A stretch of DNA of 64,000 bases, from IMG/VR virus record IMGVR_UViG_3300024255_000006, positions 1-64,000 of that record. One strand, given 5' to 3'. The notes below the pieces were generated by a model. That model was not told the origin of the DNA. It saw nothing but the letters and a program-made list of their open reading frames with translations, and searched no databases. Each line of letters opens with the position of its first letter. The stretch's first letter is position 1. Both the position numbers and the translations under genes were made by a program. Shown piece by piece: positions 1 to 25,251 of this stretch. This DNA is from a virus.

Positions 1-57
1 GATCTTGCTGCTGCTGAGTCAACACCTGTTGCACTCACCGCACCTTCTATCGGTTAA
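1..57 (+). CDS. psbA: photosystem II D1 protein, 3' end (partial)
   Basis: The first 18 codons of the window end in the C-terminal tail typical of D1 (…STPVALTAPSIG, then TAA). D1 is the photosystem II reaction-centre subunit that turns over fastest in light; cyanophage copies keep host photosynthesis going during infection. Only the part just before and after the usual processing site is visible, so catalytic residues cannot be checked. psbD follows about 315 nt downstream, the common psbA-psbD pairing of cyanophages. Confidence 0.9.
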   Translation, partial: DLAAAESTPVALTAPSIG

Positions 58-3834: not shown

Positions 3835-4085
3835 GTAAAGTAAGAGTAATTCGTGAAGATTGTGATCCAGAATTGGCGCAAGACAGAACACTTCCTAACA
3901 CCACATTTCTAATAGAGTATGAGAAGGATGGGAAAACTTGTTACGATATTTCTATTCCAAGAAAGATAGTGGACATGTTTGATTACTACTGGGACAAATA
4001 TAAACATGGACTAAAGGGATGGACTCAAACTGAAGGAAGATCTAACCCAAAACTATGGGTAGATCCACAAGATAAGAAAAAATAG
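3831..4085 (+). CDS. hypothetical protein
   Basis: An 84-aa soluble protein with a Tyr/Lys-rich C-terminal part (FDYYWDKYKHGLKGW). The start is uncertain: TTG 3831 overlaps the previous TGA and has GGGGA at 3818-3822; a TTG at 3816 is the alternative. It overlaps the GTG start of the sulfotransferase by one base. No family is recognised. Confidence 0.6.
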   Translation: MSKVRVIREDCDPELAQDRTLPNTTFLIEYEKDGKTCYDISIPRKIVDMFDYYWDKYKHGLKGWTQTEGRSNPKLWVDPQDKKK

Positions 4086-4705
4086 TGCTTTATCAAAAAG
4101 AATATACAAGTATCTTCCACGTTCACATACCAAGAACTGCTGGAAGATACATTAGAAATATCTTTCTTGATAATAAATTTGATGGTAAGTATCTATCTTA
4201 TGATGAATTCTATAGAGGTATAGAAGTTCCTCACTTACATTATCCATTGTATAACGACCTTTCATATGTTGAAAACTCCAATCACTTTGCTGTGGTAAGA
4301 GATCCATTTGAAAGATTCAAGTCGTCAATGCAATTGATGATTAGAGCAATGAATTATCCAGTCGAATTGTATGATAAGTTAAAGGACAAAGATTGGTTAT
4401 TTAATTTTCTGAATCACTCTCGTGATTACAAACAGTATCATCAAAATCATTTTAGAAAACAATCTGATTTTATATCTGCAAGAACACACGTCTATAAATT
4501 TGAAGATGGATTAGGTATAGAACTCATAGACTGGTTGAATGATAGACTAAACCTAGATCTAAATCGGACTGAATACAGGTATGAAATCTTCCATCCTCAT
4601 TCGATTAGTGGCGAGGAGTTACCAAACAAAAAAGATATTGATCCCATAGTTGAGAATTGTATTAGAGATTATTACTCAGATGATTATGAGAATCTTAAGT
4701 ATTAA
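4085..4705 (+). CDS. sulfotransferase family protein
   Basis: A 206-aa protein of the Sulfotransfer_2 type. The 5'-phosphosulfate-binding loop IPRTAGR (15-21) and the 3'-phosphate-binding motif VVRDPFERFKSS (70-81) that bind PAPS are both clear. Such enzymes sulfate sugars or polysaccharides; here the target could be host surface glycans or a virion glycan (inference). It starts with GTG, coupled to the preceding gene, and is AT-rich like its neighbours. It is the last gene before a host-type promoter. Confidence 0.85.
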   Translation: MLYQKEYTSIFHVHIPRTAGRYIRNIFLDNKFDGKYLSYDEFYRGIEVPHLHYPLYNDLSYVENSNHFAVVRDPFERFKSSMQLMIRAMNYPVELYDKLKDKDWLFNFLNHSRDYKQYHQNHFRKQSDFISARTHVYKFEDGLGIELIDWLNDRLNLDLNRTEYRYEIFHPHSISGEELPNKKDIDPIVENCIRDYYSDDYENLKY

Positions 4706-4726: not shown

Positions 4727-4755
4727 TTGCACACACTAAATAGATATGGTATAAT
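4727..4755 (+). promoter_or_regulatory. sigma-70-type promoter before the riboswitch
   Basis: TTGCAC (4727-4732), exactly 17 nt, then TATAAT (4750-4755). Transcription would begin near 4762, the first base of the riboswitch stem. A TAAATA motif (4737-4742) between the boxes may add late transcription. Confidence 0.85.
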
Positions 4756-4762
4756 TACCATA

Positions 4763-4817
4763 CGTTCATCCCCCGCAAGGAGGACGCAAGTAAGTCGCGG
4801 AACGGAGCCGTTCATCC
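4763..4817 (+). promoter_or_regulatory. glutamine-type (Downstream-peptide) riboswitch
   Basis: The aptamer features of the glutamine riboswitch family (glnA and Downstream-peptide motifs of cyanobacteria) are present: outer stem CGTTC (4763-4767)/GAACG (4800-4804), a hairpin with a GCAA loop (TCCCCC GCAA GGAGGA), then the GCAAGTAAGTC core. CGTTCATCC occurs twice (4763-4771 and 4809-4817). The second copy can pair with the same GAACG across a GAGC loop that holds the Shine-Dalgarno GGAG (4804-4807), giving a mutually exclusive fold 5 nt before the ATG at 4819. Which state is ON is not clear from sequence. Confidence 0.8.
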
Positions 4818-4818
4818 T

Positions 4819-4983
4819 ATGTTAGAACTATTATTCTATTCATCACTCACCTGCCAACAAGCTGATACAATCATGCTGAGGATGGAAGCAAATGAGAATA
4901 TCTCAAATGCTTTTAAGGTAGAGTTGATTGAGGTCATGAAGGAGTCAACTCCTGATTGCTATCCATGGGACGCACACGACTGA
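4819..4983 (+). CDS. 54-aa riboswitch-controlled peptide
   Basis: It starts directly behind the riboswitch; the family name Downstream-peptide comes from such short frames. It is acidic with two cysteines (LTCQQADTIM and TPDCYPWD). The last third (VELIEVMKESTP) looks helical. In host cyanobacteria glutamine riboswitches control nitrogen genes, including glutamine synthetase inhibitors; a nitrogen-control role here is inference. Confidence 0.75.
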   Translation: MLELLFYSSLTCQQADTIMLRMEANENISNAFKVELIEVMKESTPDCYPWDAHD

Positions 4984-5024
4984 AGGAACGGGGATTAAAA
5001 ACCCTAACTTCAGGAGACTGACAA

Positions 5025-5192
5025 ATGAACACACTGCAAATGATCAAGAAGCAGATCAACAAAGCATCTGCACTTCACGACGCACAGATTACCCACACTT
5101 CATATCGTGGTGTTGAGTATACTACACGTTGTGTCGAATTAAAGGAACCCCACGGCACATTCTGTTATCGTGGTCGTACCTACAGTAAGTGA
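5025..5192 (+). CDS. small DUF4278-like protein
   Basis: 55 aa with a good site CAGGAG 9 nt before the ATG. The second half contains YRGVEY…CYRGRTY, resembling the YRG…Y pattern of short cyanobacterial DUF4278 proteins; that match is tentative. It lies downstream of the riboswitch peptide and ends before a strong terminator, so the two form one short transcript. Confidence 0.65.
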   Translation: MNTLQMIKKQINKASALHDAQITHTSYRGVEYTTRCVELKEPHGTFCYRGRTYSK

Positions 5193-5213: not shown

Positions 5214-5238
5214 GAAGGGTTAACACCCTTCTTTTTTT
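5214..5238 (+). terminator. intrinsic terminator
   Basis: Stem GAAGGGT/ACCCTTC with loop TAAC, followed by seven T. Confidence 0.92.
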
Positions 5239-24731: not shown

Positions 24732-24749
24732 AAGTAGTCCTGATGGATG

Positions 24750-25018
24750 ACTCTAAAAGCCATGTAGGTGACGCCATCGACATTTCGGACAGGAGTTCGA
24801 TTCTCCTCGCTTCCACTCATGGGGGCGCACTGGTTTCGACGGGGTACACGGAGCGTGACTGAAACCTGCTTGGATAAGCAACCAATAGATGCAAAAACAT
24901 CTGATGTCGCTGCGAACAACATCGTAGCATTCTCCCGCAGCACCGTTGCTGCCTGAATGGGAGATCGGGGTTAGACTAGCCTTGTTACCCAAATAGTCCT
25001 CTGGGGGTGTAACGCCCC
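24750..25018 (+). ncRNA. ssrA: circularly permuted (two-piece) tmRNA
   Basis: The acceptor piece comes first: T-arm AGGAG-TTCGATT-CTCCT (24791-24807), 3' acceptor strand CGCTTCC and discriminator A (24808-24815). After 5 nt the coding piece begins GGGGGCG (24821-24827), pairing with that strand over 7 bp, including the G3-U70 wobble needed for alanine charging. TGGTTTCGACGGGG is the tmRNA 5' signature. The tag frame (24912-24956) reads ANNIVAFSRSTVAA then TGA, close to marine cyanobacterial tags. P2 helix candidates: ACCTGC/GTAGGT and GCGT/ACGC. It rescues stalled ribosomes. The outer ends are approximate. Confidence 0.88.
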
Positions 25019-25025
25019 CTCCTAC

Positions 25026-25097
25026 GCCCCTGTAGCTCAGTGGTAGAGCAGGGCTTTTGTAAAGCTCAGGTCGTCTGTTCAAATCAGATCGGGGGCT
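25026..25097 (+). tRNA. tRNA-Thr (TGT)
   Basis: Acceptor GCCCCTG/CGGGGGC, D-arm, anticodon stem GGGCT/AGCTC with loop TTTGTAA (anticodon TGT), T-loop TTCAAAT. 72 nt; CCA not encoded. Directly follows the tmRNA. Confidence 0.95.
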
Positions 25098-25100
25098 TGT

Positions 25101-25173
25101 GGGGAATTAGCTCAGATGGTAGAGCGCCTGCTTTGCAAGCAGGATGTCAGGAGTTCGAGTCTCCTATTCTCCA
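25101..25173 (+). tRNA. tRNA-Ala (TGC)
   Basis: Acceptor GGGGAAT/ATTCTCC, anticodon stem CCTGC/GCAGG with loop TTTGCAA (anticodon TGC), T-loop TTCGAGT. 73 nt; CCA not encoded. Confidence 0.95.
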
Positions 25174-25178
25174 CTCGA

Positions 25179-25251
25179 TCCTCTATAGCTCAGTTGGTAG
25201 AGCACGGAACTGTTAATTCTGTTGTCCCTGGTTCGAGTCCAGGTGGAGGAG
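25179..25251 (+). tRNA. tRNA-Asn (GTT)
   Basis: Acceptor TCCTCTA/TGGAGGA, anticodon loop CTGTTAA (anticodon GTT) on stem CGGAA/TTCTG, T-loop TTCGAGT. 73 nt; CCA not encoded. The next gene starts 3 nt later. Confidence 0.95.

Follow-up and report, generated by a model that had tools for sequence, protein, structure and literature searches.

A probable cyanophage glutamine riboswitch with two nested cores folded around a small open reading frame

The window analysed here is a stretch of 64,000 nucleotides (positions 1 to 64,000) of a 135,242-base viral record (IMG/VR IMGVR_UViG_3300024255_000006), and it resembles T4-like Synechococcus phages. A sulfotransferase-like gene (phrog_3347, 4085-4705) lies immediately upstream of the region described below. 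The window also carries a permuted tmRNA gene of the cyanobacterial type (24735-25251; RF01851 135 bits, RF04321 89 bits), which is followed by three tRNA genes in the phage record. The locus was matched by 415 phage records, each of which is named Synechococcus phage, cyanophage or Prochlorococcus phage, and the 54-aa protein encoded in it was found in 308 marine cyanophage records. The features of the locus are as follows, in window coordinates.

4727-4755, plus strand: sigma70-like promoter TTGCAC-17-TATAAT (TTGCAC 4727-4732, TATAAT 4750-4755)
4736-4742, plus strand: late-promoter-like box CTAAATA, overlapping the sigma70-like promoter
4747-4760, plus strand: palindrome TGGTATAATTACCA over the -10 box, assessed by comparison of stem lengths
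4763-4767, plus strand: outer P1, 5' strand CGUUC (partner 4986-4990)
4769-4784, plus strand: outer P2 (P2a) hairpin, whose first pair covaries in relatives
4783-4792, plus strand: linking strand GACGC (4783-4787) and 5' half of the E-loop, AAGUA (4788-4792)
4793-4797, plus strand: P3, 5' strand AGUCG (partner 4977-4981)
4799-4813, plus strand: inner permuted unit GGAACGG, loop, CGUUC, with hairpin P1' (4800-4804/4809-4813)
4804-4807, plus strand: GGAG, presumed Shine-Dalgarno sequence of the nested open reading frame (ORF), in the last base and loop of P1'
4815-4821, plus strand: P2b, 5' strand UCCUAUG, including the ORF start codon (partner CAUGGGA, 4964-4970)
4819-4983, plus strand: nested 54-aa ORF (phrog_504), whose C-terminal codons and stop are aptamer nucleotides
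4964-4976, plus strand: P2b 3' strand and inner linking strand GACGC (4969-4973)
4977-4984, plus strand: P3, 3' strand CGACU (4977-4981), and 3' half of the E-loop, GAA (4982-4984)
4985-4991, plus strand: outer 3' strand GGAACGG (P1 at 4986-4990)
4980-5013, plus strand: anti-Shine-Dalgarno hairpin CUGAAG (4980-4985)/CUUCAG (5008-5013), exclusive with P3 and the E-loop
5013-5016, plus strand: Shine-Dalgarno GGAG of the downstream gene
5025-5192, plus strand: downstream gene, 55 aa, phrog_545, DUF4278-like
5214-5237, plus strand: hairpin GAAGGGTTAACACCCTTC and a T run, terminator-like by eye

The promoter described in an earlier note on this DNA, with TTGCAC, a 17-nt spacer and TATAAT, was present, and the pattern TTGnnn-16..18-TAnnnT was found in 215 of 247 distinct upstream stretches (raw count). 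That note's single +1 on the opening base of the aptamer is insecure, however, since the promoter shares nucleotides with the CTAAATA box and its -10 box is covered by a conserved palindrome. Late-like boxes of the form [CT]WAWATA occurred in 170 of the 247 distinct stretches (raw count), and across 247 distinct upstream 26-mers the mean best stem of the palindrome was 6.4, compared with 4.8 in base-shuffled sequence. The palindrome might act as an operator or, in transcripts that begin upstream of it, form a 5' hairpin. Its sequence varies among relatives (AGGTCTA/TAGACCT, ATGGTAT/ATACCAT, TGTGATG/CATCACA, GGTAAC/GTTACC), in which it sits on the -10 box or 3' of a TATAAATA late box.

A core resembling a glutamine aptamer, reported in the earlier note from 4763 onwards, was confirmed, and its kinship to glutamine riboswitches, its phage origin and nitrogen sensing as its likely role were supported. 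The region assigned to it was nevertheless too short: the aptamer runs to 4991, and its 3' half occupies 4969-4991. The complete Glutamine-I layout (P1, P2, linking GACG, E-loop AGUA/GAA and P3) is present in the window, and the same helix layout was recovered de novo in the window's relatives. Both P3 and the AAGUA/GAA E-loop point to Glutamine-I (glnA) and away from the Downstream-peptide type that had been proposed. The stop codon UGA of the nested ORF (4981-4983) spans the P3 3' strand and the E-loop 3' half. Published glutamine pocket residues, taken from passages of PMC6698751, were mapped by eye, so that C1, G2, G18, C19, C39, G40 and G41 of the outer pocket correspond to 4763, 4764, 4786, 4787, 4989, 4990 and 4991. 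The pocket nucleotides named in those passages are kept, with a C-G long-range pair in place of the G-C of the glnA consensus; under the published scheme G4991 pairs with C4787.

The Rfam comparison suggested in the earlier note gave matches to both glutamine families, but below gathering: RF01739 scored 20.8 bits (gathering 35), its 3' half lying about 175 nt away behind the ORF, and RF01704 scored 20.4 bits (gathering 33), and no glutamine element was returned by a scan of the window at gathering thresholds. The RF01739 gathering score was passed by none of 20 ORF-bearing loci and by 8 of 20 ORF-less sources, whose elements are 85 to 101 nt long. In the best of these (L216, 46.4 bits), the Rfam alignment joins the first CGUUC to the distal GAACG, and a P3 of AGU/ACU closes over the inner element. 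A home-made model (R1) scored 20.4 and 8.9 bits on the ORF-bearing window and left the halves across the ORF unjoined, and a search for low thermodynamic z-scores in short stretches found that the local region folds no better than shuffles. Judged by sequence and predicted pairing, the outer core belongs to the Glutamine-I type and encloses a second, inner core within its P3; glutamine is its presumed ligand.

Conservation was assessed in two samples. The protein-retrieved loci comprise 80 IMG/VR loci and 16 phage records, which makes 96, or 97 with the window; the double-element sample, collected by pattern and protein searches, is a biased sample of at least 298 distinct elements. The regular expressions of the pattern search fix parts of both cores and the first copy of CGTTCATCC, and covariation counts are uninformative at the positions fixed by them. 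Since these expressions fix core parts and the sample is biased, the conservation claims rest on the protein-retrieved set. In this set all 97 loci had the 3' core and 96 had the 5' core, the exception being L049, whose contig begins 2 nt before the match. The leader GACGCAAGTAAGTCGCGGAACGGAG-CGTTCATCC-ATG was nearly invariant in the 80 IMG/VR loci and 16 phage records. A pattern scan found that the ORF end reads TGGGACGCAAACGACTGAAGGAACGG, which is the 3' half of the aptamer, and that a short hairpin replaces the ORF in L216 and some other loci. The recurrence of these putative aptamer halves around the ORF is not a product of chance.

The duplication of CGTTCATCC (4763-4771 and 4809-4817), the ability of the local GAACG to pair with the second copy with GGAG alongside, and the 54-aa ORF at 4819-4983 were all found as the earlier note had stated. 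The inner core has its strands in circularly permuted order and lacks an E-loop; by-eye mapping places its C1, G2, G18, C19, C39, G40 and G41 at 4809, 4810, 4972, 4973, 4803, 4804 and 4805. In the window, the start codon AUG (4819-4821) pairs with the CAU (4964-4966) within the Pro-Trp codons CCA UGG. Being without an E-loop, the inner unit may not bind glutamine.

When RNAalifold was applied to 68 sequences with no structure supplied, the nested layout P1, P2a, P3, P1' and P2b was obtained, with 99.4% of cells paired and 78 two-sided changes against 13.5 in shuffles. The covariation score of this fold was 0.175, compared with 0.061 in shuffles and at most 0.036 for slid structures. Covariation was uneven over the 68 sequences, being strong in P2a and P2b, with P1 and P1' nearly invariant; as P1 almost never varies, its proposed pairing is supported indirectly. 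The alignment (A1, 68 rows) retains one row, L273, despite its misaligned 5' end. On the window itself, forcing P1 and P2a alone yielded the entire nested fold.

The same strands could also be arranged as two complete glutamine aptamers in series, a pseudo-cooperative doublet in which the first copy pairs with the local GAACG, the second copy pairs with the distal GAACG, and the ORF merely sits in the hairpin of the second aptamer. There is precedent in the 157 doublet arrangements of glutamine riboswitches given in a passage of PMC9481103; P2a, P2b and the same pairing strands are kept in both configurations, and in L513 (AG-345-P14) Rfam pairs the second copy with the distal strand, at 37.8 bits. 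The two configurations are told apart by variants. In 6 loci the local GAACG has become CAACG and the second copy CGTTG, and the first copy and the distal strand stay CGTTC and GAACG; L018 is a partial seventh case. This covariation implies that the local strand pairs with the second copy and that the partner of the first copy lies downstream of the ORF, so that these elements (L018 partly) break both P1 helices of a series arrangement and keep both nested helices. For this count, ten further variant rows were judged, by reading only, to have the wrong sequence assigned as first copy: either the match was a spurious near one, or a P2a ORF separated the element from its real copy. In five rows a first copy was not visible. 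Two aptamers in series would also place the E-loop halves (AAGUA, GAA) and the P3 strands in different units. P3 covaries in L040 (AAUCG/CGAUU) and differs compatibly in L273 (GUCAA/UUGAC), and RNAalifold picked nesting. A serial doublet is therefore regarded as unlikely. Variant elements with a longer P3 (AGCCGAC type) and A-C mismatches were seen in L513, L514, L095 and L249. L249 and L273, which carry full nested elements, are contigs binned as Dehalococcoidia and Rhodospirillaceae; misbinned phage DNA is the more likely explanation.

The CAACG/CGTTG elements also bear on the competition proposed in the earlier note, in which a local aptamer (4763-4811) lets GAACG alternate between the two CGTTCATCC copies and so exposes or hides the GGAG of the 54-aa ORF. 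These pairings are possible, and the low Rfam scores fall on exactly this stretch, but in the six loci the local strand keeps its pair with the second copy, which contradicts competition by the first. A local aptamer moreover ignores the second core at 4969-4991, found in all 97 protein-retrieved loci, and cannot account for loci whose first copy lies 200 nt away; it has very little chance of being correct. A nearby first copy is absent in S-CAM1, S-IOM18, S-TIM5, S-TIM54, S-8S55, Sf-CH3 and Sf-CH8. In all 39 such loci with at least 260 nt upstream (3 others were too short) it was located 203-238 nt upstream, where it directly precedes another small ORF, whose stop is at the start of GACGCAAGTAA or, in few cases, inside it. 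With the 5' strand located there, before the ORF, a classification of these 'type B' loci as stand-alone permuted aptamers without a 5' strand was rejected. We thus favour the nested arrangement: the comparative analysis demonstrates the predicted nested fold, the helices spanning the ORF, the overlap of codons and core, and the covarying anti-Shine-Dalgarno hairpin.

ORFs occupy more than one of the predicted loops. Among the matches listed, the 298 double elements comprised 157 with an ORF in P2b only, 51 with ORFs in both hairpins, 21 with an ORF in P2a only and 69 with neither; ATG ORFs ending at the core filled every long P2b loop (208 of 208) and nearly every long P2a loop (69 of 72), again among the matches listed. 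The P2a ORF of many relatives encodes about 60 aa (phrog_6471). In P2a the nucleotides before the start covary with those at the stop, across the ORF (68 distinct proteins): UCU..AGA goes with UAA or UGA except in 4 cases (UAG one codon earlier), UCC..GGA goes mostly with UAG, and at the third P2a pair no C-A mismatches were found in these 68 proteins. The first P2a pair was U-A in 201, A-U in 18, G-C in 4 and C-G in 3 of 226 hairpin elements among the matches listed. The mean P2a helix length was 5.46, against 3.90 after shuffling of partners (n=72; maximum of 2000 shuffles 4.5), and the P2b mean was 5.72 against 5.38 (n=208; maximum 5.51), a small margin; the shuffles ignore kinship in both cases. 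The variable P2b pair was U-A in 203 and C-G in 5 of the matches listed, and the five P2b elements with CGTTCACC carry GGCGC, which turns the protein end WDAND into WGAND. In L208 (1640-2218), a 192-aa ORF occupies the P1' loop, flanked by the local GAACG on one side and by the second CGUUC on the other, and ends immediately 5' of the second copy; it is degenerate in L155 and L191. This ORF looks GIY-YIG-like by eye, and a Pfam search with it gave no match. The predicted loops that bear ORFs are three: P2a, P2b and, in L208, P1'.

The overlap with the aptamer is visible in codon usage. In the window the last codons of the nested ORF, W-D-A-H-D-stop, are aptamer nucleotides. Third-base identity among 67 distinct protein-retrieved ORFs was 0.96-1.00 over the final five codons, compared with about 0.6 upstream of them (L049, whose contig starts 2 nt before the match, and L060, with a short 3' flank, were excluded). 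The last Asp of the protein-retrieved ORFs was GAC in 64 and GAT in 1, while other Asp codons were GAC in 16 and GAT in 109. Directly 3' of the stop, AGGAACGG was present in 65 of the 67 distinct ORFs; the exceptions are S-CAM1 and S-TIM54, whose proteins end earlier with the RNA core intact beyond. A DAND terminus as a protein motif was rejected, since the RNA core persists where the nested ORF is of another kind or cut short; the odd conserved C-terminus (WDAND/WDAHD) is explained by an RNA constraint and not by a protein constraint. AlphaFold2 predicted a helical hairpin for the nested protein (helices 12-24 and 30-43; pLDDT 79.7, pTM 0.58), and two conserved Cys residues lie at 12, the start of one helix, and 47, after the other. 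A small membrane-near or disulfide-bonded protein would suit the short hydrophobic start and the two Cys. Homology between the P2a and P2b proteins was also rejected: single-linkage BLAST in a tiny database had joined both, but no E-value was better than 0.10 once a realistic database size was set, and the hhalign probability was 9.8%.

The 54-aa ORF, which the earlier note had taken as the downstream target, is embedded in the aptamer. That note missed the DUF4278-like gene at 5025-5192, which belongs to the unit and is the downstream target. Against Pfam DUF4278 (PF14105) the downstream protein of the window scored 21.4 bits (E 3.4e-4), below the gathering value of 25.3; at the same position 3 of 6 relatives encode proteins that pass the DUF4278 cut-off, with scores up to 38.1, and the downstream gene of S-SSM5 is annotated DUF4278. 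CUGAAG, whose nucleotides also belong to P3, to the E-loop and to the 3' strand of the outer core, is complementary to CUUCAG. Among the matches listed, AGGAG was found in 275 of 292 elements with enough sequence and the first six pairs of the anti-Shine-Dalgarno hairpin were intact in 259 of 275; among them too, the pair at the stop-codon base was G-C in 128, G-U in 54, A-U in 79, A-C in 0 and other in 14. The ligand-free minimum free energy fold of the window (-77.2 kcal/mol) is the anti-Shine-Dalgarno state, and the nested fold with P1 and P2a forced lies at -70.7, i.e. 6.5 kcal/mol above it. The unpaired probability of the downstream AUG rose from 0.43/0.12/0.02 ligand-free to 0.82/0.59/0.54 when P1 and P2a were forced. 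The AUG of the nested ORF was paired in both computed states, and its regulation is therefore less clear than that of the downstream gene. In the ligand-free fold, GUUCAU of the first copy (4764-4769) pairs with AUGAAC at the downstream start (5025-5030), a complementarity that is absent where the downstream gene starts AUGGC.

These observations suggest the following scheme. Two glutamine-aptamer cores would share one common P3 helix, the strands of the inner core being circularly permuted and its P2b loop filled by the 54-aa ORF. In the folded, glutamine-bound state, the GGAG of the nested ORF would lie at and in the P1' loop and its AUG in P2b, giving poor translation, and CUGAAG would be held in P3, the E-loop and P1, so that CUUCAG is uncaptured and the ribosome site of the DUF4278-like gene is free. 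At low glutamine CUGAAG/CUUCAG would form and close this gene. Ribosomes on the nested ORF would pull the aptamer apart and terminate on the E-loop, making translation and sensing mutually exclusive. Most likely, then, glutamine frees the DUF4278 gene and hides the start of the nested ORF, the latter effect being the weaker claim in these computed folds. We infer the occupancy of both pockets, the direction of switching and the functions of the proteins.

Another possible explanation for the conservation is a translational operator bound by a phage or host protein, which would re-use the glutamine-aptamer scaffold without glutamine binding. Its near-invariant core fits protein recognition too, and so does an inner unit without an E-loop. 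Retention of the pocket nucleotides from the passages of PMC6698751, with C-G replacing G-C at the long-range pair, argues for glutamine instead, as do the ORF-less members that reach RF01739 gathering and a controlled gene that is DUF4278-like, as with host glutamine riboswitches; we consider a protein operator quite improbable. The element is probably a phage glutamine riboswitch, a nested double core with an ORF inside that controls the downstream DUF4278-like gene. For the wider claim, a new RNA gene architecture with protein genes in the hairpin loops of a double, partly permuted aptamer and glutamine toggling between the nested and the DUF4278 protein, we see the balance as about even.

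It appears that a glutamine-sensing RNA switch with a small gene enclosed in its fold is widespread among ocean viruses of cyanobacteria, and the virus may choose between two small proteins by the nitrogen supply of its host. The metabolite sensor would be built around, and from, coding sequence: start, stop and C-terminal codons would double as sensor helices, ribosome passage and glutamine binding would exclude each other, and the inner core would represent a circularly permuted aptamer occurring in nature. Phage gene choice would be tied to host glutamine, a cyanobacterial nitrogen signal, and the competition between ribosome and ligand is testable on one RNA. Covariance models without space for 150-250 nt in a loop miss the element, and other riboswitch classes may therefore hide similar inserts.

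Glutamine riboswitches in cyanophages and other marine phages appear in passages of PMC9964418, PMC9602691 and PMC9004378, and tandem glnA RNAs in one of PMC2864571. The S-CREM1 glnA match spans 99 nt according to a passage of PMC9964418, close to the length of an ORF-less element, and part of the nested-element family has therefore probably been annotated as plain glnA already. No recognised description of nested cores, or of genes in aptamer loops, was found in the open-licence literature searched. In an excerpt of PMC10085705 the only RNAs listed as naturally circularly permuted are ribozymes, 5S rRNA and group II introns; the processed tmRNA, rRNA, tRNA and SRP permutations are treated separately. 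In hosts, under stricter filters, the nested form was found in 0 of 70 pattern-selected loci (those remaining of 72 sources once the metagenome-bin contigs L249 and L273 are removed) and in 0 of 300 genomes of one host family, and the best result of the host search was a simple aptamer of 44.3 bits. A plain Glutamine-I aptamer with a phage-type core (GACGCAAGUA, GAAGGAACGG) and a short P3 was seen at 48.6 bits in L516 (genome G278 of the host family); it is possibly an ancestor or an acquired phage element.

The phage element shares with Glutamine-I (RF01739) the P1 CGUUC/GAACG, the P2 hairpin, the GACG linking strand, the AAGUA/GAA E-loop, P3 and the probable control of DUF4278-type genes, for which activation by glutamine is reported for this riboswitch class in a passage of the review PMC6316151. 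It differs in that the usual P3 is a short hairpin (AGCC/GGCU in L516), whereas the phage P3 encloses the permuted core and ORF, and in the long-range pair, G-C in Glutamine-I and C-G in the phage element. The tandem glutamine doublets of PMC9481103 likewise have two glutamine cores per leader, but in series, and the passages of that paper do not mention a shared P3 or an internal coding sequence. With Glutamine-II (RF01704) the phage element shares CGCA after the hairpin, GGAACGG and the C-G long-range pair; in Prochlorococcus and Synechococcus (L217, L253) elements of that class are likewise followed by a DUF4278-like gene. These host elements (67.5 and 61.8 bits, respectively) are unlike the phage element in sequence and precede genes with the same YRG repeats as the phage downstream gene. 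Glutamine-II differs in forming a pseudoknot that has a P2 of its own, in lacking both an E-loop and nesting, and in having its peptide downstream of the aptamer; CUGAAG/CUUCAG holds a similar place to its 3' P2 in the window, but covaries as a hairpin masking the Shine-Dalgarno sequence. Group I introns also carry ORFs, those of homing endonucleases, in peripheral loops of a structured RNA. They are self-splicing ribozymes, whereas the phage element is a putative ligand-binding leader in which core nucleotides serve as codons.
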